The notes below the pieces were generated by a model. The model saw nothing but the letters and a program-made list of their open reading frames with translations. It had not been told where the DNA came from and did no database searches. The position numbers and the translations under genes are program-made. From the NCBI RefSeq assembly GCF_026341125.1, contig NZ_JAPEOR010000004.1, positions 170,513 to 234,512 on the forward strand: a stretch of DNA of 64,000 nucleotides, given 5' to 3'. The stretch comes from Streptomyces sp. NBC_01142 (GTDB lineage: Bacteria; Actinomycetota; Actinomycetes; Streptomycetales; Streptomycetaceae). Shown here piece by piece: positions 49,174 to 64,000 of this stretch (the first letter of the stretch is position 1; the number at the start of each line of letters is the position of its first letter).

Positions 49174-49211
49174 AGATCGCTCCTCATTGGTGGAAGGCGG
49201 GGTGGTCGGTG

Positions 49212-49751
49212 TCAGGACAGTTCGACGGGGCCGTAGAGGGCAACCAGCTGCTGGGTCTGCAGCGCCCAGTACCGGTCGCCGTACGACCAGTGCCATTCGG
49301 TCCCGTAGTTGATCAAGCCTGCGGTGGACAGTGCGCGGCCCAAGGCGGCCCGGTTCGTGCGGGCCCGGTCGCTCAGGTTGGGGGCGTCGGTGTAGCAGGC
49401 GCCGTTGGACTCCTCCGGGGAGGCGTTGACGCTCGTGCCCATGTCCAGCTCGCGGCCTTGGTGGTGGATCAGCGTCACGTCGACGGCCGCGCCGGCGGAG
49501 TGCGGAGCGATCTCCGGAGGCGAAACGAATCGGCTGGCGGCCTCGCGAAGCGTGGCGGCCGGCCAGTCCGGATGGGCGTGGGCGAGGTCATCGCTGTACT
49601 CCTCAAAATACCGGCGCTGCAGGTACGGGGGCCGGTAGCCCTCGATGAACAGCAACTGCACGCCGCCGGGGAGCAGCGCCTGCGCCTGCTGGAGCCGCGT
49701 GAGCACGCCCTGGCGCACGTGGGCCCAGGCGCCCGCCGCGTGTCCTGTTTG
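49212..49751 (-). pseudogene. 5'-truncated VanX-like D-Ala-D-Ala dipeptidase
   Basis: From about AGAWAHVRQGVLTRLQQ the frame encodes a M15 dipeptidase: LLFIEGYRPPYLQRRYF, APHSAGAAVDVTLI (SxHxxGxAxD zinc motif) and GTEWHWSYGDRYW (ExxH). All zinc ligands remain, but the N-terminal 40 or so residues seen in intact members are lost, and the sequence runs out of frame into the NUDIX gene upstream. There is no convincing own start. Confidence 0.65.
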
Positions 49752-50590
49752 ACGCTGATGGGCACCGCCAGGCCGTCGACGCTCGTCGCCTCCTGGACGG
49801 CGAACGGCATCAGGCCCGTGGGTTCCAGGCCCGGCGTCTCCTCGGCGAGCTCGCGCCGCAGTGTCGCCTCGAGGCTGGCATCGTCCCGCGACCGTTTGCC
49901 TCCCACGAGGGCCAGGACCCAGGGCTCCCACATGCCTTCGCGGTCATCTCGTAGATGAAGGAGGTACCGGCCAGCTCCGTTGTGGATAAGGGCGTTGGCG
50001 CTGACGGGCTCCGGGCGCCCATCCAGGCCGTGCGGCTCGGCAGCGAGGAGCTTGGCCCGCAGTGTGGGCGAGCGCACGTCGGCGTACGGGAGCCACTGGG
50101 CCCCGGCGACTTCCTCGTCCTGCAGAGCGAGCGCGGGCGGTTGCTCGGCGGTGAGGTAGAAGGCGAAACGGACATCGAAGTGCTGGTGAGCGGCCTCGCC
50201 CTTGGCCGCATTGGCGTCGATGTCATGGACGTCCACGTCGATCGGCTCGTCGAGGAACTGCGGGGTCAGGCACAGGTCGCCGGGACGCAGCCCGGCCTCT
50301 TCGCACACCTCCCGCACGGCCGCGGCCAGGAGCGTACGGTCACCCGCCTCAACGTGGCCGCCTGGGCAAAGGGTCAGCCCTGTCACCCGATGGCCGATGT
50401 GGAGCACCCGCCGGTCGCGGTCGATGACCACCGCGCTGCAGGTGACGTGACCGGGCAGCGTGGCCCGGCTCGACGGCTCCCCGGTGCCGTCCAGGACAGC
50501 CAGCAACCCCTCCAGAGCGTCCCGTTCCTCGGCATGCCGGCTGAGATAGGCCTCGACGGTCGCGCGGATATGAGAGCGGGAGGGCGGCAC
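49475..50590 (-). CDS. Double NUDIX hydrolase with frameshifted or replaced C-terminus
   Basis: 371 residues. First NUDIX box CPGGHVEAGDRTLLAAAVRE, then VCEEAGL; second box ALVGGKRSRDDASLEATLRR, then ELAEETPGL. GTG at 50590 with GAGGTG 7 bp upstream. Normal sequence ends near VPISVKQDT; the rest, rich in Arg/Ser/Pro, reads the VanX-like gene in the wrong frame. So either the C-terminus was replaced by a deletion or the gene is frameshifted. The NUDIX catalytic parts look intact. Confidence 0.65.
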   Translation of the reverse strand: MPPSRSHIRATVEAYLSRHAEERDALEGLLAVLDGTGEPSSRATLPGHVTCSAVVIDRDRRVLHIGHRVTGLTLCPGGHVEAGDRTLLAAAVREVCEEAGLRPGDLCLTPQFLDEPIDVDVHDIDANAAKGEAAHQHFDVRFAFYLTAEQPPALALQDEEVAGAQWLPYADVRSPTLRAKLLAAEPHGLDGRPEPVSANALIHNGAGRYLLHLRDDREGMWEPWVLALVGGKRSRDDASLEATLRRELAEETPGLEPTGLMPFAVQEATSVDGLAVPISVKQDTRRAPGPTCARACSRGSSRRRRCSPAACSCCSSRATGPRTCSAGILRSTAMTSPTPIRTGRPPRFARPPADSFRLRRSLRTPPARPST

Positions 50591-50705
50591 GTGATCACCT
50601 CGGACGTTGAAGGGCAGGGAGTAGGTGCTGAGCAGGAGGGGCGCGCCCGACGGCGGGGCCGCCGATGACGGCTCCGGGCCATGGGCGCCGTGTCCGGGTT
50701 CGTGC

Positions 50706-52091
50706 TCACGGGCCACCTTCCGAAGAGCGGTCGTGCCGCACATCCACGGCGACTGCGGGATTCGGGACGATCGGCCCCGACGGCGTCGGAGGTGTGACGG
50801 CCTCGGCTGAAGGAGCAGCCACGGCGGGTGAGCCGGGCATGTCCTTCAGACTGCGCAGCGGGGAGCGGTAGAGAACCACCAGGGGGACGACGAGGAGGCA
50901 GGTACCGGCAACCAGGGTGGGGCGCACGCCGATCCAGGTGCCGAGTCCGCCGGCGAGGAGCGCGGCCACCGGCCGTGCACCGGAGGTGAGCCAGGTACTC
51001 ACGGCCTGCATGCGGGCCTGCATGCCGTCGGCGGTGATGACCTGGCGAATGGTGCGCTGGGTCGTCCCCGCCGCCCCGGCGCAAGCCAGCTGAAGGAAAA
51101 GGGCGGCACCGATGGCGAACTGCCAGACCAGGCCCGAGGAGGCGAGGAGCAGAGGGACCTGGGTGAGCGGAGTGATCGCGAGCGCGGCGAGCATCATCGG
51201 CCCGGGCCCGTACCGCGCCGCGAGCGACGGGGCGGCCAGAGCACCCGCCGCCGCGCCCAGGGCTCCGATACCCAGGACCACGCCGAACGCGGTCGGGCCC
51301 AGGGCGAGGGACCGGAGCAAGTACAGCGCCCACAAGGTATTGAGGAGCGCCAGGGCGAACGAGGTCGTGGCGTTGACGAGGGTCAGGGTGCGCAGCCGGT
51401 GGTCGCCGTTCACGTAGCGCAGGCCCTCACCGATCTCGGTGTGCAGCCGGCGCTCTTCCGCTGCCGGCCGGGGGCTTTCGAGGGCCTGGATGCGGGCGGT
51501 GCACCAGGCGCTGACGAGGTAGGACAGGACGTCCCCGAGAAGCGCCCGGGCCGGGCCGAGGAGCGCGGTCAGGGCGGCGCCGAGGTTGCTGCCCGCGGTG
51601 GCGGCGACGGCGAAAAGCCCGCCGATGCGGCTGTTGCTCCGCTGGAGCAGGGACCGGTCGACCAGGCCGGGCAGAAGACTGATCGCGGCGGCATCGTGCA
51701 GCACCCCCGCCGCGCCCTGCACGGCCGCGACCACCATCAGCTGGGTCAGGGACAGCCGGTCCAGCGCGGCCGCCACCGGCACACTGGCCAGCGCGACAGC
51801 GCTGACCAGGTCGCCGGTGATCATCTGCTTCCGCTTGGAATGGCGGTCGGCGAGGGCCCCGGCGTGCAACGCCAGCAGTGCGGGCGGCAGTTGGCCCAGG
51901 AACGTCAACCAGGCGACCTCGGCGGTGGTCGCGTCCAGTTCGAGCACCGCCAGCACGGGGATCACCATGCTGCTGATCGAGCTGCCGGTCACGCTGGCTG
52001 CCTGCCCGGTCAGGTAGCGCCGGAAGTCGCGGTGTCGCCACAGCGACAGCCGGGCGCCGGGGGAGGAGGAGGGGTCAGTGGAGGAGGTCAT
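50706..52091 (-). CDS. MFS exporter
   Basis: 461 residues, about 10-12 hydrophobic segments. Typical features: FRRYLTGQAASVTGSSISSM (TM1), GALADRHSKRKQMITGDLV (cytoplasmic loop 2-3 motif A), LARYGPGPMMLAAL, and a long Pro-rich hydrophilic tail. GAGGAGG precedes the ATG; it overlaps the kinase gene by 17 bp. Likely exports a product of this region or gives self-resistance. Confidence 0.85.
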   Translation of the reverse strand: MTSSTDPSSSPGARLSLWRHRDFRRYLTGQAASVTGSSISSMVIPVLAVLELDATTAEVAWLTFLGQLPPALLALHAGALADRHSKRKQMITGDLVSAVALASVPVAAALDRLSLTQLMVVAAVQGAAGVLHDAAAISLLPGLVDRSLLQRSNSRIGGLFAVAATAGSNLGAALTALLGPARALLGDVLSYLVSAWCTARIQALESPRPAAEERRLHTEIGEGLRYVNGDHRLRTLTLVNATTSFALALLNTLWALYLLRSLALGPTAFGVVLGIGALGAAAGALAAPSLAARYGPGPMMLAALAITPLTQVPLLLASSGLVWQFAIGAALFLQLACAGAAGTTQRTIRQVITADGMQARMQAVSTWLTSGARPVAALLAGGLGTWIGVRPTLVAGTCLLVVPLVVLYRSPLRSLKDMPGSPAVAAPSAEAVTPPTPSGPIVPNPAVAVDVRHDRSSEGGP

Positions 52092-53109
52092 GGAGCACCT
52101 CCTCGGCTTCCGTCAGGCGCTCCCACAGCACACGCTGCGCCTGATGCCGGTCCCGCCCGTACGCCTCCAGCTGAGAGGTGACCGCGGACGGGTCGTCGAG
52201 CGGCTCGGAGAGGGGGTATGCGGAGCAGGCCAGATAGCCGGCCGCTACCCGTGGCACCGTCAGCAGGTCTTCCGTCGACATGGCCGGGTTGGCCTCCCGG
52301 TAGGCAGCGACGGCTGCGGCCAGACCCGCGGGCCAGTTGGGGGCGGCGAGAACCGTGCGCGGGTCGAGGACGATGCGGCCCAGCTCCCACATCGGGCTGC
52401 GGTGCGACGGCGGCCGGAAGTCGATCACTGCGGCGACCTTCTCGCCTTTCAGCATCAAGTTCAGGGAGGAAAGGTCGCCGTGAACGATCTGCACGGCGAG
52501 GGTCGGCGGGAGTGCTTTGAGCATGGAAGCCGTGGCGGCGAGTCCCTCCAGCCGCTCCCGAGCGGCTTCCCTCGCCCATACCTCGAAGGGGCAGCTCGGG
52601 GGCTGCTTCGCATAGCGGGCGAGCAGTCGCTCCAAGCGCTGTCGGCCTCGCTTGACGTCGCAGACCTCGCGGGCGGGGGCGCGGCGCGGCGGCCCGTCCG
52701 GATGGCGGGCGAGGGTGCGGTGCAGCTGGCCCACGGTCTCGCCGACGGCGGCCCACCGTTTGCCGGACAGACCGTCTTCCGCTGTCTCGGCACCTTCAAC
52801 GAACGCGGCGACGGACACCGACAACCCGCCGCCCGCCGCGATGAGATCACCGTCGAGGGTGCGGCGCATCACCGGTGCCGGGACCCCGCCGCGCGCGGCG
52901 AACTCGGCCAGCTCGAGGGCGCGCCGCTCGGCCACCAGATCAGCGCTCGCCGGATAGGCCTTCACGAACCATCGCCGGCCCTCGGCATCCCGGGCCACGT
53001 AGTTGCAGGTGGCGGTCCCTGACGGCCCCTCGGAGACCTCGGTCGGGATGATGCGGTAGTACAGCGCCAGGACTCCCGCCACCACCATCACGGCGGACTC
53101 CGCGCTCAC
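52075..53109 (-). CDS. APH-fold phosphotransferase
   Basis: 344 residues. Kinase motifs: RRWFVKAYPASADLV (Lys), VQIVHGDLSSLNLML (catalytic HGD and Asn) and AAVIDFRPPSH (metal Asp). GTG at 53109, which overlaps the HIT gene stop by 4 bp. It probably phosphorylates a small molecule; with the exporters on either side a resistance role is plausible. Confidence 0.85.
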   Translation of the reverse strand: MSAESAVMVVAGVLALYYRIIPTEVSEGPSGTATCNYVARDAEGRRWFVKAYPASADLVAERRALELAEFAARGGVPAPVMRRTLDGDLIAAGGGLSVSVAAFVEGAETAEDGLSGKRWAAVGETVGQLHRTLARHPDGPPRRAPAREVCDVKRGRQRLERLLARYAKQPPSCPFEVWAREAARERLEGLAATASMLKALPPTLAVQIVHGDLSSLNLMLKGEKVAAVIDFRPPSHRSPMWELGRIVLDPRTVLAAPNWPAGLAAAVAAYREANPAMSTEDLLTVPRVAAGYLACSAYPLSEPLDDPSAVTSQLEAYGRDRHQAQRVLWERLTEAEEVLHDLLH

Positions 53110-53640
53110 CGTGACACCACCGAGGACCCGGTCCAGCCCAGCAGCTCGCGCAGGCCCCGGGCGTCGGACTGCAACTGCTCCTCGTCCTGACGGCCGTGAT
53201 CGAGGACGTCGAAAGGGAGCGGCCCGCCGGGCGCTGGATCCTGGGCGGCAGAGCGCCGGGGAGTGATGTGGTAATGCCGTTGGCACGGCATTACCGAGGA
53301 GCTGGTAGTTGAGCTTCAGCGGGCGGTAGTACTGCTCCACCGCGCGACCGGCGGCCAGCGCCTCGTTCCAGAAACCCGCGGCTTCAGCGGAGGTCATCGC
53401 GGTCGGCTCGGCGACGTGCCGCGCGGTGAAAATCACCACCACATAGCCGCGGACCTGACCGCTGCGCCACAGATAGGCGTTGGCGAACGGGCCCTTGTTG
53501 ATCAGCAGGCCCCACGTGATGTCCTCGGCGGTGAAGTCGTTGGTGCAGATCGGGCAGTCGATCCCGGCCAGGTGGTCCTCGAAGTGCTCCGGCCACTCAG
53601 TGCGTGGGGCGGGCGCGATCCGCCTGTCGGCGGCGCTCAT
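53106..53640 (-). pseudogene. HIT-family protein, frameshifted in the catalytic motif
   Basis: The first frame gives a HIT fold (CPICTNDFTAEDITWG, LINKGPFANAYLW, VVVIFTARHVAEP, LNYQLLGNAVP). After NAVP the reading must change frame to give HYHITPRRS and the family C-terminus ending in a normal stop at 53106. Compared with the H-x-H-x-H triad, two bases appear to be missing and the first His is lost. The site lies in a perfect hairpin (53270-53295). Probably inactive unless the sequence is wrong or the ribosome shifts. The ATG overlaps the ABC gene stop. Confidence 0.7.
53270..53295. repeat. Perfect 11-bp inverted repeat at the HIT frameshift
   Basis: GGTAATGCCGT and ACGGCATTACC are perfect reverse complements around a TGGC loop, inside coding sequence and exactly at the point where the HIT reading frame breaks. 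Confidence 0.9.
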
Positions 53641-55646
53641 CCGCTGTCCCCGTTCCTGCTCGGAGCCTCGGCCTGGTAGGCGGCGGCTTGGAGGGTGAAC
53701 ATCTGGTGGTACTCGCCGTGTTGAGCCATCAGCGAAGTGTGATCACCGCTTTCGATGATCTGGCCGTCCTGGAACACGAAGATCCGATCGCACTCGATCA
53801 CGCTGGCCAGCCGATGGGAGATCAGGATCGTGATGCGGTCCGCGCGACGGCGGCCGCGCAGCACAGCGGTGTAGGCGGCGTGCTCGGCACGCGGGTCCAT
53901 GCTGGCGGTCGGCTCGTCGAGCAGGAGGACCGCGGCGTCCTTGTAGAGACCGCGGGCCACGGCGAACTTCGCCCAGTTCCCGCCGGAGAGTTCTTCGCCG
54001 TCCTTGAACCGCTTCGAGAGCGGGGTCGTCCACTGCTGGCGCAGCCCGGCAATGACCCTGTCAGCGCCGGACGCCGTCGCGGCCTCGTGTGCCCGCTCCG
54101 GATCGGCCTGCGTGATCGTCCCGGTGGAGATGGTGATGTTCGCGAGGGCCGAGAGCGGCCACTCCACTGGGTCCTGGAGGACCATGGCTACCTGGGCCTG
54201 CACGCTTTCGGCGTCCATCGTCAGCACGTCGGTGCCGTCCCAGGTGATGCTGCCGGCCGTCGGCTCGTACAACCCGGCGATCAGCTTGGACATCGTGGAC
54301 TTGCCCGAGCCGTTCGCCCCCACGAACGCGACGGTGGAGCCTGCGGCCAGTTCCAGGGACACGCCGTTGAGCGCGGGCTTCTTCCCGTCGGGGTAGGTGT
54401 AGGCGACGTTCTCGATGCTGATCGTCTTGACCTGGCCGGGTGCGGCGATCCCGGTGCGGCGTGGGAGCAACGTGCGGCACTTCTCCAGGAAGGTGTACAG
54501 GTCCGACACCCACAGGGCGTGCTCGTACACGTAGTGGGTCGCGAGGACGATCCGGGTCAGGGTGCCCTGGCTGGCCCGGATTGCCAGAACGGCGCCGCCG
54601 CCGGAGGCCAGCGGCAGCCAGCCCACGATCGTCATCCAGGCGAGCGCGGCGTAGGTCAGGCCGGTGGCCACACCGCCGACTGCTCGGCCGAACAGTGCCG
54701 TGCGGGCCTCGGCCCGCCCCAGCCGGGTGTCCTCCTCCTCGATCCGCCGGGCGATGCGCTCGTGCTCGCCCAGCAATGCCGGCTGCGCGGTCGAGGAGCG
54801 CAGCTCCGCGGCAGCGTCCCGGTCCAGCAGCAGCCAGGTGAACAGCCGCACGCGCCGCTGGAGGGTGCTGTAGCGGACCTGGCTGAGGAACCGCATGCGT
54901 GCGGAGCGCACCGAGGCGAGCCCCTGCGGAATCACCGAGGCGAGAAGCAGCGGCAGAAGAACCGGGTGGAGCAGGGTCAGAACAGAGGCGGCACCGATGA
55001 GTCCGAGGAGCGCGGACGCGAGTTCCATGATCTGGGTGATGGACTGGCGCGCGTAGTAGAGCCCCCGGTCGTTGGCGCGGTTGGAGTCATCCGCCCAGTT
55101 CGCGTCGTCGACGGCCTCAAGCCGCACGTGGGCCGCCAGGCGAAGGAAATCCATCTCGACAATGCGGCGGATCTTCGGTGTCAGCCGGGCCTGATACAAG
55201 GCGACCCCGGCATCGAGCACGGCACGGAACATCAGCAGCCCAGCCACCAGAGCCAGGGACGGGAACGCGGCGCGGATCCGGTCTGGGGTGGCGCCCTGGG
55301 CGAAGAGGGCTTGCAGGACGCCGATCGAGGCCAGGAGCCCGAACGCCGCCATCGCCGCCGAACCCAGCTGCAGGACGATCACGGCCGAGGTGGCCCGTGC
55401 GTCGGCGCGCCACGCCATCCCCAATACGCGGCGGATGATCGCGGGGAGCTTGGCGAAGATCTTCCACATGCTGGTGCGGGAGGCCTCACCATCCCAGGTC
55501 GACCAGTAGGCATCCTTGAGTTCGTCGCCGAGCTCCGCGCCTTCGGGCGAAGGCGGGGCAGACGCCGGAGGGAGCGGCACGGGCTCGGTACGTGCGTGCG
55601 GCACGGATCGGGCGCTCGGTGCGGCCGGGCGCAACGGATCGGTCAT
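53637..55646 (-). CDS. ABC transporter, fused permease and ATPase
   Basis: 669 residues. A 90-residue hydrophilic N-terminus, then a six-segment exporter domain (AMAAFGLLASIGVLQALFAQ onward), then the ATPase: Walker A VGANGSGKSTMSK, signature GEELSGGNWAK (one residue off LSGGQ), Walker B AVLLLDEPTASMD and the His switch ILISHRL. ATG at 55646 with GGGAG upstream, overlapping the stop of a tiny ORF. Likely exports a peptide or specialised metabolite. Confidence 0.9.
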   Translation of the reverse strand: MTDPLRPAAPSARSVPHARTEPVPLPPASAPPSPEGAELGDELKDAYWSTWDGEASRTSMWKIFAKLPAIIRRVLGMAWRADARATSAVIVLQLGSAAMAAFGLLASIGVLQALFAQGATPDRIRAAFPSLALVAGLLMFRAVLDAGVALYQARLTPKIRRIVEMDFLRLAAHVRLEAVDDANWADDSNRANDRGLYYARQSITQIMELASALLGLIGAASVLTLLHPVLLPLLLASVIPQGLASVRSARMRFLSQVRYSTLQRRVRLFTWLLLDRDAAAELRSSTAQPALLGEHERIARRIEEEDTRLGRAEARTALFGRAVGGVATGLTYAALAWMTIVGWLPLASGGGAVLAIRASQGTLTRIVLATHYVYEHALWVSDLYTFLEKCRTLLPRRTGIAAPGQVKTISIENVAYTYPDGKKPALNGVSLELAAGSTVAFVGANGSGKSTMSKLIAGLYEPTAGSITWDGTDVLTMDAESVQAQVAMVLQDPVEWPLSALANITISTGTITQADPERAHEAATASGADRVIAGLRQQWTTPLSKRFKDGEELSGGNWAKFAVARGLYKDAAVLLLDEPTASMDPRAEHAAYTAVLRGRRRADRITILISHRLASVIECDRIFVFQDGQIIESGDHTSLMAQHGEYHQMFTLQAAAYQAEAPSRNGDSG

Positions 55647-55825
55647 GATCGGCTCCCGCTGACCGCGTGCCGCGTTGCCAGGACAGGCTGGCTGATGGGC
55701 AGAACCCTGGAAGATGCCGCCCGGCAGCCACCGTCGTGGGTGGCGGGCGACATCGACGAAGGGGCGTGCCGGCGCGCCTGCGTCCTGCCGCGGTGGCTGG
55801 TCGCTGCATGGGTGGGCTCGCTCAT
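55643..55825 (-). CDS. Small basic ORF coupled to the ABC gene
   Basis: 60 residues (MSEPTHAATSHRGRTQARRH and on, with one Cys in THDGGCRAAS). Its ATG overlaps the stop of the ORF upstream and its stop overlaps the ABC start, both as ATGA. Such a chain suggests translation even if the peptide itself is not conserved. No family recognised. It could be a precursor peptide, a leader for coupling, or a remnant. Confidence 0.4.
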   Translation of the reverse strand: MSEPTHAATSHRGRTQARRHAPSSMSPATHDGGCRAASSRVLPISQPVLATRHAVSGSRS

Positions 55826-55965
55826 GCGGTCCACCTCGTATCCGGTCGTGCTGAGCGGGGGGCGACGGCGTCAACCCGCTGTGCGTGGCGGGCGAGAGGA
55901 GTAGTCGAGGGCCGCCGCTGTTCGAATCCGAGAGGCTGATGTGCAAGGGCGAGTACGGGATTCAT
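55822..55965 (-). CDS. Small ORF with strong ribosome binding site
   Basis: 47 residues, start MNPVLALAHQPLGFEQRRPS, end RPDTRWTA. GGAGG lies 5 bp before the ATG, the best site in this stretch, and no other gene is close enough to use it. First in the coupled chain of small ORF, small ORF, ABC transporter. No family recognised; a candidate peptide precursor or leader peptide. The rest of the gap to 56226 shows only a CCCCC-CA-GGGGG-type short hairpin near 56015. Confidence 0.4.
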   Translation of the reverse strand: MNPVLALAHQPLGFEQRRPSTTPLARHAQRVDAVAPRSARPDTRWTA

Positions 55966-56226
55966 GGCGTCCTCCGTCTGGGCGCGTGAGGGGTACTGGT
56001 GCTCTAAGAACGCCCCCGTGGGGGGTCCGTAACGGCTTGGTCGGGGGCAGATATTGGACGAATGTTCTATTGATGGGTAGTGGGCGCCGGGGCCGCGCCC
56101 GGGGTCGGCGGAGATGAACTCGAACGCGGCGTGTCACCCGTTCGTGGACTTGTCCTCGCGGCCGTGGACGCATGCCTGTGACGGCAGCGTCGGCCGGGCC
56201 GCTGCCGGGTGGGTGGTGGGGTCAGG

Positions 56227-57207
56227 TCAGGGGGCGGGGTGTTCCAGGGCCTCGTTCCAGGCGTCGATGCCGTCCGGGTCGAGGAGTGGCGCTACTGGGG
56301 TGTTGAGGTACTCGTGCTCGACGAAGTACAGGCCGGCGGTTCCGGCGTGGCCGGGGAAGAGTTCGTTCAGGCGGCGGGTGACGGCTTCCGGCACGGCGTC
56401 TTCGGCGTCGAGGAGCCGACGGGCGAGGATCTTGCGGTTCCACACGTCCAGGCCGAAGGAGTCGCTGTTCCGGGACGCGTGGGAGGCCATGATCGCGGCG
56501 GTGTAGGGGCCGACGCCCTTGATCTGCTGGAAGGTCTGCACGAGGTCGCCGGCGCTCTGGAGTTCCTCGGTGGTGTGATCACGGAAGAAGGCGGCGAAGT
56601 GGGGCAGGGTCTTGGCGCGGTATCCGAGGCGGTCCTGTTCCTTGAAGGTCTCGGCGGAGACGTGCGCCAGTTCCTCGGGCGTGAACCAGGCCCGGAGCGT
56701 GATGCCGTCGAAGTGGACGAGCTGGCCGTGGTGGGTGAGGAGGTTGCGGGTCATCTGGGTGGTGCGGGCGATGGTGACGTTCTGCAGGAGCAGGGCGACC
56801 ACCGCGATCTCGAAGTGGTCTTCGGGGCAGCTCTGCCGCATGCCGGACAGCGCTTGGAGCGGCTCGCTCATCTGCGGTACGGCGGCGGCGAGTTCGGTGA
56901 ACTGGCTGAGGTCTTCGTCCAGTCCGTAGGAAGTGGTCAGTCGGCGTACCAGGTGCTCGCCGTGGCTGGGCTTGTAGTCGCCGTCGGTGTAGATGTCGGC
57001 GATGACGAGCTGGTCTTCGGCGTGCAGGCGTACGCCGGTGACGAGGTCGCCGGCCCGGAAGGTGCGCCAGGAGCGGGTGGCGGTGTGTGCCTCGAGCCCG
57101 GTGGCGTAGTGGGACGGCTTCCAGAGGGTGTGGAGGAAGTCGAAGGGCCCGTCTCCGGTGACGGGCAGTTCGATGGTGTCGGCGTGTTCGAGGTGGCGGG
57201 GGGTCAC
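56227..57207 (-). CDS. HhH-GPD family DNA glycosylase
   Basis: 326 residues. Residues 230-260 hold the helix-hairpin-helix (QQIKGVGPYTAAIMAS), and DSFGLDVWNRKILARRLL carries the conserved Asp of the GPD loop. The N-terminal half is OGG1/AlkA-like. GTG at 57207, one base after the WYL gene stop. It lacks a clear iron-sulphur tail. Either base-excision repair or, in this company, a repurposed enzyme that cleaves or binds a modified nucleoside. Confidence 0.75.
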   Translation of the reverse strand: MTPRHLEHADTIELPVTGDGPFDFLHTLWKPSHYATGLEAHTATRSWRTFRAGDLVTGVRLHAEDQLVIADIYTDGDYKPSHGEHLVRRLTTSYGLDEDLSQFTELAAAVPQMSEPLQALSGMRQSCPEDHFEIAVVALLLQNVTIARTTQMTRNLLTHHGQLVHFDGITLRAWFTPEELAHVSAETFKEQDRLGYRAKTLPHFAAFFRDHTTEELQSAGDLVQTFQQIKGVGPYTAAIMASHASRNSDSFGLDVWNRKILARRLLDAEDAVPEAVTRRLNELFPGHAGTAGLYFVEHEYLNTPVAPLLDPDGIDAWNEALEHPAP

Positions 57208-57208
57208 G

Positions 57209-58234
57209 TCATGCTCCTGGGTGGCGGCCGTGGGTGGATCTCAGGCGGGAGTCGTCGTCGGGGAGTCCGTCCGGCGGCGCTGGGCCCGGGGGCGCGGCGG
57301 TGTCGTAGACGGCCAGGGTGCGGCGCAGCTGGCCGGCTATCGCCGCGCGCAGCGCTTCCGGTTCGGTGACGACGACGTCCGGGCCGTAGCTGCTGACCAG
57401 CGGGATCAACCACTCCCACCGGTCGACGAACAGCACGATCGTCAGGGACCCGTCGTCGTGTTCATGGACCTGGGACGTGGACTTCAGGCTGAGGCGCAGC
57501 ATCTCGTCGCGTGCCGCAGCCGTGACGTTCAGGGCGACGCGTACCTCGCCCTTGCCGTAGTCCTCCATGGTCTGCGTCCACCAGTCGCGGACGGAGAAGG
57601 ACTCGGGGTAGGCGAAGGTCAGGTCGGTGGGCACCAGCCGGTCGACCAGGTTGAGTCGGAACCGGGAGGGGCCGCCGGTGGCGCGGGCGGCGACCATGTG
57701 CCACTCGCCTGCCTTCCACACCACGCCGTAGGGCTTGAGGAGGGCGGTCTCCTGGCTCCCGGTCTTGGAGCGCCAGGTGGCTTCGACGGCGGTCGCGGCG
57801 AGCATGGCGGTGCGCAGGATCGGAAGGTGCCCGGAGCCTTCGTCGCGCCAGTACCAGTCGGCGGTGTCGAAGTGGATGCGCCGGGCCAGGCGCCGGATGA
57901 CCTCTTGGACGGTGTCGCTGATGCCGACCGCGCGGGCGCGGTCTTCGGTGGCGGCGGCGTCGGGGTCGAGGAATCCCAGGACGTACAGCCGCAGGGCGTG
58001 GTCGGAGTCGATGGTGAGCGGGTCGAGGGCGGTATCGGGGGAGAGCCGGTATCCGCCGACCTTGCCGGGCTGGGCCTGGATGGGGATGCCGTGAGCGGTG
58101 AGGGTGGTGATGTCGCGGTAGATGGTGCGTTCGGTGACGCCGAAGCGGTCGGCCAGCTCGCTGGCGGGCACGTTGGTGCGGCTGCGGAGCATGTGCACGA
58201 TGCCCAGCTGCCGGGCGCGGACGGCGTCGACCAT
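57209..58234 (-). CDS. WYL-domain transcriptional regulator (DeoR-like HTH)
   Basis: 341 residues. N-terminal winged helix: LADRFGVTERTIYRDITTL (recognition helix). The WYL region covers about 120-300 (PYGVVWKAGEWHMVAARA; FRLNLVDRLVPTD), followed by a C-terminal extension. ATG at 58234, touching the SDR stop (TGATG). As part of the operon it may act as its own ligand-sensing regulator. Confidence 0.85.
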   Translation of the reverse strand: MVDAVRARQLGIVHMLRSRTNVPASELADRFGVTERTIYRDITTLTAHGIPIQAQPGKVGGYRLSPDTALDPLTIDSDHALRLYVLGFLDPDAAATEDRARAVGISDTVQEVIRRLARRIHFDTADWYWRDEGSGHLPILRTAMLAATAVEATWRSKTGSQETALLKPYGVVWKAGEWHMVAARATGGPSRFRLNLVDRLVPTDLTFAYPESFSVRDWWTQTMEDYGKGEVRVALNVTAAARDEMLRLSLKSTSQVHEHDDGSLTIVLFVDRWEWLIPLVSSYGPDVVVTEPEALRAAIAGQLRRTLAVYDTAAPPGPAPPDGLPDDDSRLRSTHGRHPGA

Positions 58235-58965
58235 CAGAGTGCCGCCCCCAGGGGATAGATCTGGCCGGTGGCGTACGACCACTGCTCAGCGGTAGCGAGG
58301 TCGATGCAGGTGGCGGCGACCTCGTCCAGGGACAGGGGGCGTCCCCACGGCAGTTGCTCGTAGTAGGCGTCGGGGTCGGTGACGCCTTTGAGGGACATGA
58401 TCTGCCGGGCGAGGGGCGAGTCGATGAGCGACGGTGCGAGGAGATTGACCCGGACGCCGTGGTGCAGCTCCTCCTTGGCCAGGGTGGTGACGAGGGAGGC
58501 GAGGGCGGCCTTCGCCGCGGTGTACGGGCCGTTGCCGGGACGGGCCGCCTGTCCTGCGTCGGAGCCGACCGCCAGAACGCGGGCGCCGTCGTGCCGGGCC
58601 CGGTCGGCGAGGGCGTGCCAGGTGCGGACGAAGCTGACGACGTTGGCCTGGTGGACCGCCTCGTACTCGCTGACGTCGGTGTCCGCGACGGTCTGCTTGG
58701 TCGAGGGGGCCCCGATGCAGGCGAACACCGCGCGCAGCGGGCCCGCGCAGGAGTCGACAGCATGCCGTAAGGCGGCGGTCGCGGCGTCGTCGGAGGCGTC
58801 GAACCGTACCCAGGAGGAGTCCTCGTCCTGGGGCGGGCGGGTGCGGTAGGTGGCCACGACCTGCCAGCCCTCTTTGACCAGGCGGGTGCGGATCGCTGCG
58901 CCGAGGGCCCCGCTGGCGCCGGTCACGACGGCCAGCGGGGCGACAGCGGACGGGGGAGCGGTCAC
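58234..58965 (-). CDS. Short-chain dehydrogenase/reductase
   Basis: 243 residues. VVTGASGALGAAIRTRL (TGxxxGxG), NVVSFVRTWH, VLAVGSDAG (Ser), GPYTAAKAALASLVTTL (Tyr-x3-Lys) and the C-terminal substrate loop. GTG start with GTGA overlap to the upstream gene. Likely oxidises or reduces a hydroxyl or keto group of the product of this operon. Confidence 0.85.
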   Translation of the reverse strand: MTAPPSAVAPLAVVTGASGALGAAIRTRLVKEGWQVVATYRTRPPQDEDSSWVRFDASDDAATAALRHAVDSCAGPLRAVFACIGAPSTKQTVADTDVSEYEAVHQANVVSFVRTWHALADRARHDGARVLAVGSDAGQAARPGNGPYTAAKAALASLVTTLAKEELHHGVRVNLLAPSLIDSPLARQIMSLKGVTDPDAYYEQLPWGRPLSLDEVAATCIDLATAEQWSYATGQIYPLGAAL

Positions 58966-59381
58966 CGGGCGTCGGCCTCCGGCTGGGCGGGGGCGTCGGG
59001 GTGGTCGGTGTCCCACATCTCGGCGAAGCGCATCTGGTCGTCGGGGATGTCGAACAGGGCGCCGACGGCCCGGGCGTGGGCGATGGCGTCCTCGTCGCCG
59101 CGGGGGATGTCGACGACGGTGCGCGGGAAGACCACGAGCATCCGCGTCTCGTCGATGAGGTGGGCGTAGTACAGCCGGGACTTCAGCGCGGCGGACAGAG
59201 CCAGCGCCAGGCCCGGCGCCTGGTCGGCCGGCACGGTCAGCTCGATGATCTCGATGGGGGTGCGCTCGTCGAGCAGATGCGGGTAGCGGCGGTCCTCCAT
59301 GCCGGCGAAGACGGCCGGGAGTTCACCGTCGGTGAGGCTTTCCGTGATGACGACGGCGCGCATGCTGGTCACGCGGAACAC
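58962..59381 (-). CDS. Hypothetical protein (139 aa)
   Basis: Alpha/beta pattern with strands MRAVVITESL, IEIIELTVP and RMLVVFPRTVVDIPRGDED. No family recognised. GTG at 59381 with GAGAGG upstream; an in-frame ATG at 59363 is an alternative. It lies between an aaRS-like ligase and an SDR, with a 10-bp gap and a 4-bp overlap, so it belongs to the same pathway. Confidence 0.7.
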   Translation of the reverse strand: MFRVTSMRAVVITESLTDGELPAVFAGMEDRRYPHLLDERTPIEIIELTVPADQAPGLALALSAALKSRLYYAHLIDETRMLVVFPRTVVDIPRGDEDAIAHARAVGALFDIPDDQMRFAEMWDTDHPDAPAQPEADAR

Positions 59382-59391
59382 GTCCTCTCAC

Positions 59392-60396
59392 TCAGTGGTA
59401 GGGGAAGGTCAGGGCTTCGAACACGGTCCGGCCGGTGCACAGCGCCAGCAGCCGTTCGACGCCCAGGCCGAACGTGAACACGTCGGCGGGGTCGCAGTCG
59501 ATGTCGGTGAAGAAGTCGACCGGCCCGCGGTCCGCCGGGATGCCGTGCAGCTGCGTGCGCAGGGCGATGTTCGCCTCGACCATCGGCCGGTAGTCGTCGG
59601 CAGTACGCAGCTTGACCCCGCCGTCGCAGATCTCGGTGCCGGCCGCTATCAGGGAGAACCGCTCCGCGCGGCCACTCGCCTCGTTGATGCGGGAGTTGTG
59701 CCGCAGCTCCCAGGGGAATCCGTACAGCACGGTGGGCTTGGTGACGGGCTTCTCCACGGCGTGCTTGACGAAGTCCTCCATCACCGCCCAGTCGGTGCCG
59801 TCCGCCTCCAGGCCGCGGTCCTTGAGCCAGCCTCGGGCGGCCTCGACCAGCTCCGCACCGGTCGGGGCCTCGGTGACGCCGAGCGCCTCGGCGATCGCGT
59901 CGTCGACAGGCCGCGTCTGGATGGTGGTGAAGTCGACCGCGGGGGTGGCCAGGGTGGCAAACGTGGTCTGCACCGTGTGCTGCACCAGGCCGGTGACCAG
60001 GCTGATTCCGGTCTGGAGGTCGATGTCGCGGGCGGCGGTCTGCAGCATGGTGAACTCGATCGCGTGACTGTCGTCGGCCTGCTCGGCGCGGATCGCCTTG
60101 GACAGGTCGAAGACGCGGTCGATGCTGACGACGACGCGGCGCAGGTGTTCCTCAGCGGAGTGCCGGAGGTGGAAGGACTGCCCGGTCAGCGGGTGGAGCG
60201 TGGCGAACTGCGGGATCGGGGCGCTCTCGCGGTCCTGGCACAGCACGGGGGTGGCGACCTCCGTGTAGCCGGTCTCGTGCAGCCAGCCGCGCATGGCGCG
60301 CACCATGTCGGCCTTGGCCAGCAGCAGGGTCCGCTCGGAGGGGTGCTGCTTGAGGAGGGTGCCGTACAGGCGCCGGTCTTCCGGGGCGATGGTCAC
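59392..60396 (-). CDS. LysRS-like class II synthetase paralogue without anticodon domain
   Basis: 334 residues. Class II core: FHLRHSAEEHLRRVVVSIDR (motif 2 region of LysRS), FDLSKAIRAEQADDSH (Arg that binds the acyl-adenylate), AIEFTMLQTA and motif 3 FGLGVERLLAL. LysRS is about 500 residues with an N-terminal OB-fold; here that is missing, as in EpmA/PoxA and asparagine synthetase A. It should activate an amino acid as its adenylate and pass it to a protein, small amine or ammonia. GTG overlaps the S66 peptidase stop by 4 bp. Confidence 0.85.
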   Translation of the reverse strand: MTIAPEDRRLYGTLLKQHPSERTLLLAKADMVRAMRGWLHETGYTEVATPVLCQDRESAPIPQFATLHPLTGQSFHLRHSAEEHLRRVVVSIDRVFDLSKAIRAEQADDSHAIEFTMLQTAARDIDLQTGISLVTGLVQHTVQTTFATLATPAVDFTTIQTRPVDDAIAEALGVTEAPTGAELVEAARGWLKDRGLEADGTDWAVMEDFVKHAVEKPVTKPTVLYGFPWELRHNSRINEASGRAERFSLIAAGTEICDGGVKLRTADDYRPMVEANIALRTQLHGIPADRGPVDFFTDIDCDPADVFTFGLGVERLLALCTGRTVFEALTFPYH

Positions 60397-61349
60397 CGCT
60401 CTCCTCCTTCGGCCGGGCCGGTCCAGGGGGAGGTGATAGTGAGGGGGTGCTCAGCAGTGGAGTTGAGGAGGACCTCGGCCCCGATGGGCAGGGTGTGCTT
60501 GAGGGGGGTGTGCCCGAAGGGCAGGCCGACGGCGATGGGGAAGTCGTACTCGGCGCACAGGTCCATGACCATCTGCTGGGCGCCCGTCCCGCCGGAGGGC
60601 TCGCAGCCGAGGAGTTCACCGACGACCATGCCGGAGATCTGGTCGAGGACGCCGCAATCCCGGAAGTGGGTCAGGGTCTGGTCCAGCTGCTCGATCGGCT
60701 TGAAGGCGTCCTCCCAGGCGAGGACCGCTCCCTGCCAGTGGGGTTCCCACACGGTGCCCAGCAGGCAGCGCAGCGAGGTCAGACATCCGGCGACCAGAGG
60801 CCCCTGCGCGGATCCGGTGCGGGCCCACCCCAGCGGGGCGTTGATCCGGGCGGCGTGCGCCTCGCCGGCGAGGACGGCACAGAAGTGGTCGCCGGTGGCC
60901 GCGGGAGCGTCAGGGGAGCCGAAGTCCCACAGGACGGCGGGCCCATGGAAGGTGGGCATGCCGGTGCGGGCGGTGATCGCGTTCAGCAGCACCGTCGGGT
61001 CGCTCACCCCGACGATCGGCTTCGGGTGGGCGCCGATCAGCGTGTAGTCGAGGCCGCGCAGCAGCCGGTTGGCGTTCTTGCCGCCCCCGGCGCACACCAC
61101 GGCCGCGATGCCGGGGTCGGCGATGAAGGAGTGGAAGTCGTCCAGGAGCGCGGCCTCGCTGCCGGCCCGGTAGCCGTGGGTGTCCAGCGCGTGGGCGGCG
61201 GTGACCGGCTCGAACCCGCGGCCGCGCAGGGCGTCCAGCCCGCGCGTGAACTGGTCGGGGTTCTGAGCCGGTTCGGGCGCGGACACGGCGACGACGCCGA
61301 TGCGGTCGCCCTTGGCGAGCGGGGCGGGCAGAACACGTGCGGTACTCAA
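60393..61349 (-). CDS. S66-family LD-carboxypeptidase (MccF-like)
   Basis: 318 residues. IAAVVCAGGGKNANRLLRGL and PIVGVSDPTVLLNAI (Ser nucleophile) are the S66 blocks; MVVGELLG and GLPFGHTPLKHTLPIG carry the Glu and His regions. MccF cleaves and so detoxifies aminoacyl-nucleotide antibiotics of the microcin C type. TTG at 61349 with GAGGAGA 7 bp upstream. Next to an aminoacyl-adenylate-forming enzyme this gives a tidy immunity hypothesis; a cell-wall recycling role is the alternative. Confidence 0.85.
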   Translation of the reverse strand: MSTARVLPAPLAKGDRIGVVAVSAPEPAQNPDQFTRGLDALRGRGFEPVTAAHALDTHGYRAGSEAALLDDFHSFIADPGIAAVVCAGGGKNANRLLRGLDYTLIGAHPKPIVGVSDPTVLLNAITARTGMPTFHGPAVLWDFGSPDAPAATGDHFCAVLAGEAHAARINAPLGWARTGSAQGPLVAGCLTSLRCLLGTVWEPHWQGAVLAWEDAFKPIEQLDQTLTHFRDCGVLDQISGMVVGELLGCEPSGGTGAQQMVMDLCAEYDFPIAVGLPFGHTPLKHTLPIGAEVLLNSTAEHPLTITSPWTGPAEGGER

Positions 61350-61438
61350 GCGAGGTCTCCTCTTGGCTGGGGCCGTCCGCCATGCACCGGTCTCCCGAGG
61401 GGTGATGATTCCGGTGCACAGCGTGACGGTAAGGGGTG

Positions 61439-62845
61439 TCAGCGGGCGGGGGCCAGCCGCATCTGGGTCGCCTCCCGGGCCCGGGCCGCGGTGGCGTCGG
61501 TCGTCCAGGGGGTCAGGGAGGTGTAGTAGTCGAAGCTCGACCACTCCTCCAGCGAGGCGGGCGGAGTGAATCCGGCTTCCAGGGCTTGTTCCCACAGCGG
61601 GGTGCCCGGGTACGGGGCGAACAGGTGCACCCGCGTCTCGGGCTGCGGGTCGAGCTGCCGCAGCTCCTCGATCAGCGAGTAGGTGTCCTCCATCTCCGCG
61701 TCGCTCTCGCCGGGGAACCCGACGATGAACGTGTAGGAGCCGAGAATGCCGTGAGCGGCGATGTCAGCCGCGACATCGAGAATGCTCGCGCGGGTGATCT
61801 CCTTGCGGACCACGTCGGCCAGCACGCGGTCGTTGCCCGACTCCACGCCCATCAGCAGCCGCGAGCAGCCGCTCTCCGCGATCCGCTCCAGCAACGGGAG
61901 CTTGGCGCGGCGGGCCTTGAGGATGTCGTTGGGGTTGATGCTGGCCGCCCACCGGATGTCCACGCCGCGGTCGAGCAGCCCGTCGCAGAAGCCGATGGAC
62001 CGGCGCAGGTTCACGAACCAGTCCGCGTCGTAGAACTTCACCCCGTTGATGCCGTACGCGGCCTTGAGCGCGACCACGTCGTCCAGGAGGTCCTGGGCGG
62101 CCATCGCCGAGTACTTGCGCTGGTAGGTGAGTTCGAAGCAGAACTGGCACTTGTAGACGCAGCCCTGGCTGGAGACGTAGTTCAGCGTGCGGGTGGCCAC
62201 CGTGGGGTCATCACGGATGTACTTCGCGACGTCCAGCAGTGCCCAGGGGTAGGCGCCCAGGTTCCCGGTCCGCGGCGGGTTCACCCGTCCGCACATCACG
62301 CACTCGCCGTTGTCGATCCGCAGGCCGGGGACCAGCCGGCGCGGCACGCGGCCGAGGAGCGACTTCACGTACTCGAGCATCGAGTTCTGCCCGGGGCCCT
62401 GCAGGACGGCGTCGACGAGCGGGTGCGCGGCGGTCTGCTCGGGCTGCACGTTGACGTGCGGCCCGCCGAAGACGACCGGCGGACAGAAGCGGCGCTTCTT
62501 CGCGGCCCGCACCATCTCCAGGGCGTGCCCGATCTGCCCCCCGCCGGTCATGATGCTGACCCCGATGCACGCCGTCCGCCCGAGGTGCTCGTCCAGCAGC
62601 CGCTCCCACGCCGCGGCGTCCCTCTGATTGCCGTCGAACAGGACCACGTTCACCAGGCCGCTCTCCATGAGCGGCTTGGCGATGGTCAGCAGCGAGAACG
62701 GCATCCAGAAGTAGACGTAGTCCTTCTCGTGGTCGATCTTCGGATAGACCAGGATGACCGTCGGCAGACCCTCCCGCGCTTCGGAGGCCGGGGGCGACGG
62801 GACGGTCGTCAGCCCGGAGGGAAGCCCCATGAACACGCCGCTCAC
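61439..62845 (-). CDS. B12-binding radical SAM enzyme
   Basis: 468 residues. N-terminal cobalamin-binding fold (VILVYPKIDHEKDYVYFW; CIGVSIMTGGGQIGHAL; VVFGGPHVNVQPEQ). The radical SAM site SQGCVYKCQFCFEL is C-x3-C-x2-C, followed by VKFYDADWFVN, LLMGVESGNDRVLADV and IVGFPGESDAEMEDT. GTG at 62845 overlaps the upstream gene stop. Probable methylation or rearrangement of an unactivated carbon. Confidence 0.9.
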   Translation of the reverse strand: MSGVFMGLPSGLTTVPSPPASEAREGLPTVILVYPKIDHEKDYVYFWMPFSLLTIAKPLMESGLVNVVLFDGNQRDAAAWERLLDEHLGRTACIGVSIMTGGGQIGHALEMVRAAKKRRFCPPVVFGGPHVNVQPEQTAAHPLVDAVLQGPGQNSMLEYVKSLLGRVPRRLVPGLRIDNGECVMCGRVNPPRTGNLGAYPWALLDVAKYIRDDPTVATRTLNYVSSQGCVYKCQFCFELTYQRKYSAMAAQDLLDDVVALKAAYGINGVKFYDADWFVNLRRSIGFCDGLLDRGVDIRWAASINPNDILKARRAKLPLLERIAESGCSRLLMGVESGNDRVLADVVRKEITRASILDVAADIAAHGILGSYTFIVGFPGESDAEMEDTYSLIEELRQLDPQPETRVHLFAPYPGTPLWEQALEAGFTPPASLEEWSSFDYYTSLTPWTTDATAARAREATQMRLAPAR

Positions 62846-63873
62846 CGGTGCGCCTCCAGCAGTTCCTGCGGAGTGGCGTCGCCGGGCCGGAAGTAGGCGT
62901 CGGCGTACATCTCGAACGCGGCTTCCACCTGGGCGGCCAGCGTCTCCTGGTCGTCCGTCTCCAGCAGCGGGGCGAGGTCGACGGTGACGTCCTCGCGCAG
63001 GAGGCAGAACTGCAGCCGGGCGTCGGCGGTCAGGCGCAGTGCCATCAGCGCGTCGTGGCACGGGAAGAGCGGGCAGCCGCGGCACACCGAGCCGTACCAG
63101 GCGCCGGCGGTGGAGTCCTTGAGGACCACCTTGGTGCCCGAGGGCATGGTGAACACCGTCATCGGGTGGCCGAGGCCGCCCTGCTGCACCGTCTCCTCGT
63201 CGATGGCCCGCACGCGCAGGTCGCCCGCGAGCTCCTCCATGGAGACGTAGAGGTCGGGAAGGTTCCGGCTGCGCTTGATCTCCAGGCGCCGGGCGAAGCT
63301 CTCGCTGCCCTCGCCGAGGTCCTTGATGATGTCGAGGAGCTTCACACTCTCGACCCCGGCCTCCTCGCACCACGCGATCAGCGGGTCGATCTCCGAGGCG
63401 TTGATCCCGTCCATCACCACGACGTTGACCTTCACGGGGACGCCGGTGGCCACGCACGCCTCGATCGCGGCCAGCACGTCGGCGTGGTCGTTCACGCCGC
63501 AGATCTCGTGATGCAGTCCCGCGTCCAGGGTGTCCAGGGAGACGTTGAACAGGGTCACCCCGGCCTCGGCGAGCGCAGGCGCGAGCTCGCCGATCCTCGG
63601 GTGCCGCGAGATCACCTCGACCTCGCTCATGCCGGCATCCTGGCGCAGGCGGCGCACGACCTCCACGAGCGGCTCGTACAGAGCCGGGTCCCCGCCGGTC
63701 AGCTTGATGCTCTCCACACCCTGAGCCCGGACGGCCTTCGCGACGGCGATCAGCTGTTCGGGCGCCAGGTCGGTGCCGGACTCGGTGGCCACGGCCTCAC
63801 CCGACGGCCGGCAGTAGTAGCAGCTCCGCTTGCAGCGGGAGTTAACCGTTACCCGGACTTGCGGTTTCCGCAT
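62842..63873 (-). CDS. MoaA-like radical SAM enzyme
   Basis: 343 residues. N-terminal cluster SRCKRSCYYCRPSGE (C-x3-C-x2-C). C-terminal second cluster CRGCPLFPCHDALMALRL plus FCLL matches the MoaA layout (C-x2-C-x13-C-like). IKLTGGDPALY and NVSLDTLDAGLH are as in GTP 3',8-cyclase. No other molybdopterin gene is present, so this is likely a paralogue acting on a nucleotide or similar compound. ATG at 63873 with GGAGGG 5 bp upstream. First gene of the operon. Confidence 0.85.
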   Translation of the reverse strand: MRKPQVRVTVNSRCKRSCYYCRPSGEAVATESGTDLAPEQLIAVAKAVRAQGVESIKLTGGDPALYEPLVEVVRRLRQDAGMSEVEVISRHPRIGELAPALAEAGVTLFNVSLDTLDAGLHHEICGVNDHADVLAAIEACVATGVPVKVNVVVMDGINASEIDPLIAWCEEAGVESVKLLDIIKDLGEGSESFARRLEIKRSRNLPDLYVSMEELAGDLRVRAIDEETVQQGGLGHPMTVFTMPSGTKVVLKDSTAGAWYGSVCRGCPLFPCHDALMALRLTADARLQFCLLREDVTVDLAPLLETDDQETLAAQVEAAFEMYADAYFRPGDATPQELLEAHR

Positions 63874-63961
63874 GTCACCCCTCCCTCGCACATCGCTGAC
63901 ATTCACGCTCACAGCCTCGTGGTCCCTTCCCCTGGCCAGCAACAACGTTGGACAGAGTCGA

Positions 63962-64000
63962 TGTCAGGGTTTGCTGGACGCCCAACTCCGAACCCTGACA
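63962..64000. repeat. 10-bp inverted repeat upstream of the radical SAM operon
   Basis: TGTCAGGGTT and AACCCTGACA are perfect reverse complements separated by 19 bp, 89-127 bp before the MoaA-like start. Position and spacing fit an operator of a dimeric regulator (the WYL protein is a candidate) or the terminator of a gene beyond the right edge. It runs to the very edge of the window. Confidence 0.7.

Follow-up and report, generated by a model that had tools for sequence, protein, structure and literature searches.

In the 64,000-nucleotide stretch of Streptomyces sp. NBC_01142 DNA analysed here (the window), we found a minus-strand operon of eight genes, extending from about 63906 to 56227. 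The genes encode, in order, a MoaA-like radical S-adenosylmethionine (SAM) enzyme, a B12-binding radical SAM enzyme, a peptidase of family S66, a ligase with the core of LysRS (lysyl-tRNA synthetase), a protein of 136 amino acids (aa), a short-chain dehydrogenase/reductase (SDR), a WYL regulator and an HhH-GPD DNA-glycosylase-like protein (Table 1). Between neighbours there is either an overlap (4 or 1 bases) or a gap of 1, 19 or 89 bases. A preliminary description of this DNA had named the first four genes. These are real: all are on the minus strand, and their products pass Pfam superfamily cut-offs. The extent of the operon had to be revised. The genes for the 136-aa protein and the SDR lie within the range first described and had been omitted, the WYL and HhH-GPD genes lie outside it, and a palindrome upstream had also been overlooked. 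The Pfam scan covered ten proteins of window 52078-63873, and tRNA and Rfam scans of the window gave no matches. The MoaA-like protein probably starts at a GTG at 63906 or 63912, upstream of the annotated start at 63873, because an N-terminus similar to that of the extended protein can be read in frame, by eye, in the upstream sequences of several relatives.

Table 1. Features of the operon, its surroundings and related plasmid gene sets. Positions are those of the window unless a locus (L) is given.
Feature	Position	Strand	Remarks
Palindromic operator candidate	63962..64000	.	TGTCAGGGTT-N19-AACCCTGACA, 39 bp
MoaA-like radical SAM enzyme, 343 aa as annotated	62842..63873	-	PF04055 94 bits
B12-binding radical SAM enzyme, 468 aa	61439..62845	-	PF02310 43 bits, PF04055 69 bits
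S66 peptidase, MccF-like, 318 aa, TTG start	60393..61349	-	PF02016 110 bits, PF17676 91 bits
LysRS-core ligase, 334 aa	59392..60396	-	PF00152 94 bits, no second domain
136-aa protein, ferredoxin-like (PII/CutA-like) model	58962..59372	-	no Pfam/NCBIfam match
Short-chain dehydrogenase/reductase (SDR)	58234..58965	-	PF13561 107 bits
HTH-WYL-WCX transcriptional regulator	57209..58234	-	PF08279, PF13280, PF25583 above cut-off
HhH-GPD DNA-glycosylase-like protein, 326 aa	56227..57207	-	PF00730 22.9 bits, cut-off 26.2
ABC exporter, accessory, downstream of cassette	53637..55946	-	PF00005
HIT/APH reading frame and MFS transporter, accessory	50706..53640	-	PF01636 for 52075-53640
HIT/APH/MFS/NUDIX/methyltransferase set	window 46858-55946; L030:19748-29885; L033:16952-28039; L039:18950-28034
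Second aaRS-like plasmid family	L033:28295-37746; L043:2129-10967; L042:2331-10951

We refer to the eight genes as a cassette and placed their counterparts in a set of 17 loci by tblastn. All eight genes were present in the same order at 11 of these, which speaks against a chance grouping; the remaining six are variants or damaged. The 11 comprise the window, contig C5 of the same genome, Streptomyces katrae, Streptomyces coffeae, two Streptacidiphilus, genome G326, the NBC_00239, F12 and NBC_01456 plasmids, and genome G1353. They are partly non-independent: two are from one genome, several are close relatives, and two NBC plasmids are very near the window. The order spans Streptomyces, Streptacidiphilus and G1353, which is Nocardia-like by its B12 enzyme. 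C5 carries a second copy of the cassette, 97.5% identical in DNA across 10.5 kb. The two copies (window 61000-63989 and L006:1-3000) are identical over ~3 kb at contig ends and mostly 94-100% identical beyond. This near-identity could reflect gene conversion or an assembly effect.

The other loci differ in content or order. Nocardia asteroides has eight genes, with the order of ligase and peptidase reversed. A Calothrix plasmid has six, with no WYL or HhH gene and with the ligase before the peptidase; its five non-ligase genes are 39-63% identical to those of the window. A plasmid of Nocardia farcinica has seven genes, the ligase not being found on the fetched stretch. A plasmid of Nocardia cyriacigeorgica has six genes, with neither moaA nor the ligase found on the fetched stretch, and with a Tn3 transposase gene ~500 bases upstream of its partial B12 gene. 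Each of these two ligase-less cassettes is followed, after a few genes, by one annotated as a dGTP triphosphohydrolase (L027:4236-5534, L028:18328-19686). In Streptomyces olivaceoviridis, the fetched stretch showed neither moaA nor the B12 gene, a transposase-like frame precedes the S66 gene, and the ligase is split in two frames. An Acidimicrobiales metagenome-assembled genome (MAG) has a divergent SDR, an extra copy of the small protein and an open reading frame that resembles, by eye, a PHP-type phosphoesterase.

Copies of the cassette are found on linear Streptomyces plasmids, and variants on Nocardia and Calothrix plasmids. The contig of the window is 234 kb and the region to the left of the cassette is plasmid-like; we infer that the contig is a plasmid. 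The cassette is not always plasmid-borne, since the G326 copy sits on a 9.7-Mb contig. The ligase belongs to a narrow family, with 32 proteins at E <= 0.001; identity exceeds 30% for 29 of these. Organism names were attached to 20 of these 29, and every one is in the Streptomycetaceae. Only 2 of 392 sampled Streptomyces genomes contained the ligase, one being the genome of the window itself. For the B12 enzyme, we found 328 relatives at E <= 1e-60 among predicted proteins (7996 best candidates scored); 22 of the best 120 are named, from Streptomyces and Nocardia to Brevundimonas and Solirubrobacteraceae. At E <= 1e-100 it was present in 1 of 394 genomes of the class and 1 of 396 of the phylum, the window's own genome both times, and in 1 of 401 genomes of a second family, namely G1353. 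Among 72,556 plasmid records, the ligase (>60% identity) was found in 4 and the B12 enzyme (E <= 1e-40) in 9. Searches of open-access papers gave, among the matches listed, no description of the cassette.

We compared the ligase to LysRS and found that it probably acts on something other than lysine. As the preliminary description had proposed, it is LysRS-like. It lacks the anticodon-binding domain: PF00152 was the only domain detected with Pfam. Arg103 and Arg315, which belong to the class II motifs, are kept in every ligase row with data, so adenylate formation by the ligase is likely. In an alignment to solved LysRS, Gln119, Ala121 and Lys262 occupy lysine side-chain contact positions and Asp258 is at the position of Asn424. 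In E. coli LysU these contacts are Glu278, Tyr280 and Glu428, to which Gln119, Ala121 and Lys262 correspond in that order. The window ligase differs from LysRS at positions 119, 121, 258 and 262. Because the side-chain contact residues are replaced, lysine is probably not the substrate of the window ligase, and we set aside the idea of a lysine-using enzyme. All 26 rows of alignment A1 have Asp258 and Lys262, as do the 13 type-A rows; the corresponding pair is Ser/Gln in the N. asteroides ligase and Asn/Asn in that of Calothrix. Four ligases, those of Streptacidiphilus jiangxiensis, the Acidimicrobiales MAG, N. asteroides and Calothrix, share Glu at position 119 with LysRS. In AspRS the position of Lys262 is occupied by an Arg that binds the side chain of aspartate, and this hints at an acidic substrate. 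We treat this as a lead only. It is weakened by the variation at position 119 (Gln/Glu) and by the Gln and Asn at position 262 in N. asteroides and Calothrix.

The peptidase is MccF-like, as had been described. Its closest solved relatives are MccF proteins (E 1e-34), with murein tetrapeptide carboxypeptidases at ~1e-23. The Ser116/Glu213/His280 triad is intact in 17 of 17 loci, and both S66 Pfam domains score above cut-off. Lys217 aligns to a Lys of MccF and is kept in Calothrix and in the 13 loci that have ligase Lys262; N. asteroides has Thr there, and the two Nocardia without a ligase have Val. The S66 protein of N. farcinica is the most divergent, with 37% identity to that of the window.

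A MccF-like peptidase next to a LysRS-like ligase had led to the idea of a Trojan-horse antibiotic, in which a mimic of an aminoacyl-adenylate would inhibit a tRNA synthetase and the S66 enzyme would give immunity as MccF does. Both proteins are present, and ligase Lys262 (at the AspRS Arg position) and S66 Lys217 might both recognize an acidic acyl group of the kind found in microcin C. In contrast, Lys217 is replaced in N. asteroides and the two other Nocardia, and the DNA glycosylase would be left unexplained. There is no ThiF domain among the ten proteins scanned, an absence already pointed out in the preliminary description, and we saw neither a precursor peptide nor an uptake partner, although short peptides were not searched for. 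The Trojan-horse idea is partly supported. Its aminoacyl-nucleotide form is possible, but it leaves the glycosylase-like gene unexplained and we think it quite unlikely.

In the MoaA-like protein, the N-terminal radical SAM cysteines Cys14/18/21 are invariant (15-row alignment), as are Cys264/267/272/290, which are probably the C-terminal cluster cysteines. The protein scored 144.2 bits against the NCBIfam equivalog of MoaA, the GTP 3',8-cyclase (cut-off 284.05). The B12 enzyme is the best conserved protein of the cassette, with Cys229/233/236 invariant (16-row alignment), and scored under the cut-off of all 21 NCBIfam families listed. The SDR was found in 16 of 17 loci by tblastn, and a divergent SDR was seen by eye in the 17th. 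The 136-aa protein was found in all 17; its structure model has a pLDDT of 89 and only weak fold matches.

It is possible to imagine two quite different functions for these proteins. One is a metabolic operon, in which the ligase would modify a protein (the 136-aa protein or elongation factor P, EF-P) or a tRNA, and the S66 enzyme would act on peptidoglycan. The ligase does match EpmA, a LysRS-core ligase that acts on EF-P, and the SDR matches the EF-P reductase YmfI. However, these scores are far under the cut-offs: 83.4 bits for EpmA (cut-off 286.9), with the N. asteroides, Calothrix and G1353 ligases likewise under it, 84 bits for YmfI (cut-off 238), and 110.9 bits for the S66 protein as a muramoyltetrapeptide carboxypeptidase (cut-off 378). 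The preliminary description had named a cell-wall S66 enzyme together with a ligase for protein lysine as the combination that would overturn it, and both proteins are below the NCBIfam cut-offs for such functions. In addition, the 136-aa protein also occurs at loci where no LysRS was found, its C-terminal tail is variable, and the rarity of the ligase within the genus does not fit a metabolic role. We consider this alternative highly improbable.

The second is anti-phage defence. The radical SAM enzymes would make a viperin-like nucleotide analogue, the glycosylase would clear host DNA, and the WYL regulator would induce the genes on infection. The patchy, partly plasmid-borne distribution fits this picture, as do PADLOC matches to the pVip model (37.4 bits on the MoaA-like protein, a weak match) and to a Cas-associated WYL model (115 bits). 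CBASS and BREX systems are reported to be under WYL regulators. On the other side, the MoaA-like protein is far under the NCBIfam viperin cut-off (29.6 bits; cut-off 180), and the ligase and S66 peptidase would be left without a role. We found no match to the ligase patterns or to the operator palindrome in viral contigs and no near-identical cassette DNA in phage records. A search of PHROGs gave no match with a telling function. Overall, a defence function seems improbable.

Two genes of the cassette point toward DNA. The HhH-GPD protein has the HhH-type motif and the catalytic-type Asp254 in 16 of 16 loci that carry the gene. Its closest solved relative is a 3-methyladenine glycosylase (4ejy, E 3e-9), and two Nocardia copies exceed the PF00730 cut-off (27.7 and 47.8 bits). 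It does not have Lys at the position where bifunctional enzymes carry it (KGVGPYTA). The WYL gene is present in 16 of 17 loci, and its HTH (helix-turn-helix), WYL and WCX domains all score above cut-off. A mycobacterial WYL activator binds single-stranded DNA and a 19-bp imperfect palindrome and responds to genotoxic stress (PMC10693628). The presence of glycosylase-like and WYL genes in the cassette suggests that DNA is a target of its product.

Upstream of the operon, both the window and contig C4 end with the palindrome TGTCAGGGTT-N19-AACCCTGACA, which takes up their final 39 bases. The pattern matched the window once and had 0 matches in 100 shuffles. There is a single site in the 10.1-Mb genome of this strain (G000) and a single site in G326, both at the cassette; a control pattern gave 0. 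The palindrome is exact in 8 of 30 loci examined, some of which are overlapping stretches of the window's own genome. It is near-exact in S. katrae (both arms altered), NBC_00239 and N. farcinica, and only loosely matched in N. asteroides and the MAG. It was not found at N. cyriacigeorgica or at C5, whose contig begins inside the palindrome. The half-site TGTCRG may resemble the PafBC motif; the letters of that motif were not found in the paper searched, and we have not used the likeness.

We found that the ligase of G1353, and less decisively its peptidase and small protein, is of another lineage than the rest of the G1353 cassette, judging from trees, identities and site patterns. Most of that cassette is closest to N. 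asteroides. Combined MoaA and B12 sequences of G1353 joined N. asteroides with support of 100/100, and trees of the SDR, WYL and HhH proteins paired the two with support of 76/81, 98/99 and 95/96. Identities to N. asteroides and to the window, respectively, were 74 and 59% for MoaA, 85 and 72% for B12, 73 and 52% for SDR, 66 and 54% for WYL, and 72 and 51% for HhH. The corresponding values were 47 and 59% for S66, 26 and 48% for the ligase, and 50 and 56% for the small protein; the genes for these three are adjacent to each other. Forcing the G1353 and N. asteroides ligases into one clade was rejected (approximately unbiased, AU, test, p 7e-6). We also counted, site by site, how often G1353 agrees with all seven Streptomycetaceae and how often with N. 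asteroides. The counts favoured the Streptomycetaceae for S66 (28:7, p 5e-4) and for the ligase (52:4, p 1e-11), and favoured N. asteroides for the SDR (4:17, p 0.007). The small protein gave 7:1, which is non-significant.

Based on these comparisons, the ligase and peptidase appear to have been swapped jointly between bacteria. That is what would be expected if the S66 enzyme removes what the ligase adds. Further variation is seen in the ligase-less Nocardia. The N. farcinica operon encodes a 798-aa protein with a SUMF1 domain and an FkbH-like part (88 bits, under the cut-off of 147), and N. cyriacigeorgica has a gene of equal length and the same annotation at the same place in the operon. 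Both plasmids have an S66 gene. Since the lineage of the ligase differs in G1353, and since ligase-less operons contain an FkbH/SUMF1-type protein, the acyl-attaching step seems to be variable. The pattern suggests that the acyl-attaching enzyme is exchangeable and that the S66 gene tends to travel along.

A joint exchange fits equally well with a cap-and-release scheme, in which the acyl group added by the ligase would shield a genotoxic core during synthesis and the S66 enzyme would be a maturase that removes the cap and so activates the product. A DNA glycosylase as back-up against freed core would also fit. However, inspection by eye showed no signal peptide on the S66 protein, and a cap removed in the cytoplasm would leave the producer poisoned; the best solved relatives of the protein are MccF immunity enzymes. 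We regard this scheme as unlikely.

The reading that we favour, though belief and doubt are about evenly balanced, is that the eight genes form a mobile cassette for biosynthesis of and self-protection against a small toxic molecule, in which the acyl step is exchangeable, the hydrolase is matched to it and protection is of the DNA-repair type. The gene content agrees with the biosynthesis and self-protection that the preliminary description had proposed. In our proposal, four of the proteins, namely both radical SAM enzymes, the SDR and the 136-aa protein, would assemble a core. The LysRS-like enzyme would adenylate an amino acid, though probably not lysine, or a similar acid and couple it to the core through an amide or ester bond. 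The MccF-like S66 enzyme would cleave the acyl-core bond in the cytoplasm of the producer, so that the toxic acylated form would not accumulate. The core would harm or enter DNA, against which the DNA glycosylase would protect, and most cassettes would have a glycosylase for this reason. The WYL regulator is predicted to sense DNA damage or the product and to govern the operon through the palindrome.

Several results weigh against this reading. The evidence for exchange comes from one genome, G1353. When tested alone, the forced clade was borderline for S66 (AU p 0.0501) and was not rejected for the small protein (AU p 0.08). The site counts for MoaA (6:11), B12 (6:11), WYL (8:8) and HhH (5:14) were each non-significant. 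The ligases of N. asteroides and Calothrix form one clade (100/100), yet the S66 proteins of these two are just 38% identical, and the Calothrix S66 protein (a long branch) joins that of G1353 (93/95). Because these groupings of ligase and S66 differ, the peptidase and ligase have not always travelled together. The HhH protein of the window is under the Pfam cut-off, and no copy of the palindrome was found at the Calothrix and G1353 loci. There is no exporter in the core cassette, and the adjoining ABC gene is also a neighbour of unrelated genes.

A broader proposal is more tentative still, and we doubt it more than we believe it. It holds that such cassettes make a new family of DNA-directed, acyl-capped natural products and have been spread by plasmids among actinobacteria and cyanobacteria. 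A single core, built by the radical SAM enzymes, would receive exchangeable caps, with the acyl enzyme and S66 eraser as a block in which decoration and immunity are shuffled together, and the actinobacterial forms would be governed by a damage-sensing WYL switch with a single operator.

We considered whether the ABC, HIT, APH and MFS genes downstream are specific parts of the system and rejected this, since relatives of the ABC gene also stand apart from the cassette. All five of the cassette-free plasmids that we inspected carry such relatives (58-63% identity), one of the five with HIT and APH genes alongside. Plasmids F12 and NBC_01456 have the order ABC-HIT-APH-MFS. In window 52075-53640 a HIT-like stretch (by eye) and APH are in a single frame, and they are two separate genes in plasmid relatives. 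On linear Streptomyces plasmids, varied biosynthetic clusters have HIT, APH, MFS, NUDIX and methyltransferase genes beside them, a set that in most copies includes an ABC exporter. On pFRL3, HIT-APH-MFS are near 7-deazaguanine-type genes. On pFRL4 and pFRL5, the accessory set follows a different gene, which resembles an aminoacyl-tRNA synthetase (aaRS) and is accompanied by genes for a TauD dioxygenase and an AlkD-like or HEAT protein.

The latter genes belong to a second plasmid family in which, once more, an aaRS-like ligase (292 aa on pFRL4) adjoins a DNA-repair-like gene. This family has a TauD dioxygenase and, on pFRL4 and pFRL5, an AlkD-like/HEAT-repeat protein, and its genes are divergent from genes for a desaturase, an amidinotransferase, a cupin (or hypothetical protein) and DUF3865. 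The NBC_00239 cassette adjoins another cluster (L021:1118-9026), with two dCTP/deoxycytidine-deaminase genes and genes for a TauD dioxygenase, a PIG-L protein, a glycosyltransferase and a protein that resembles class II tRNA synthetases and has anticodon and editing domains. Window 24165-44639 contains, besides a radical SAM gene and a urease-alpha-like gene, genes of the nonribosomal peptide synthetase type in which FkbM/FkbH-like regions were recognized by eye. An Embleya plasmid matches 69% of window 28000-52000 at 81% identity.

If our favoured reading is right, the cassette represents a family of antibiotic-type pathways without a known product, with a LysRS-derived ligase that acts on a non-lysine substrate. 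The family would provide a natural test of whether immunity peptidases co-evolve with the group that they remove, and the cassette is compact enough for expression as a whole. The palindrome, present once per genome in two genomes, offers a handle on what turns the cassette on.

The cassette resembles several known systems in part. AcmF and SbzA are aaRS-like enzymes that aminoacylate toxic small molecules. Like the ascamycin (AcmF, AlaRS-like) and SB-203208 (SbzA, IleRS-like) clusters, the cassette is a Streptomyces cluster with a tRNA-synthetase-like enzyme that would place an amino acid onto a toxin. AcmF and SbzA, however, are derived from AlaRS and IleRS and use aminoacyl-tRNA as the source of the amino acid, whereas the cassette combines a LysRS-core enzyme with a pair of radical SAM enzymes, a DNA-glycosylase-like protein and an S66 peptidase. 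We set aside 4'-thiothymidine as a parallel, since its cluster is described as a different one, of three genes. EpmA (PoxA/GenX) also has a LysRS catalytic core and no anticodon domain. In contrast to EpmA, the ligase is under the family cut-off, its lysine contacts are replaced (in the window), and the cassette has no EF-P gene. MccF hydrolyses the amide that links the aminoacyl part to the nucleotide part, and MccF and MccH are immunity enzymes. The cassette shares a MccF-like S66 peptidase with the microcin C clusters (MccB, MccF, MccH), but the ThiF-type MccB was not found in the ten proteins scanned, and radical SAM and DNA-repair-type genes are present instead. Finally, DNA glycosylases (YtkR2, AlkZ, TxnU) confer self-resistance in genotoxin clusters. 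Like those, the cassette is a natural-product-type cluster with a DNA-glycosylase-like gene, although the fold is HhH-GPD here and of the AlkD and AlkZ types there.

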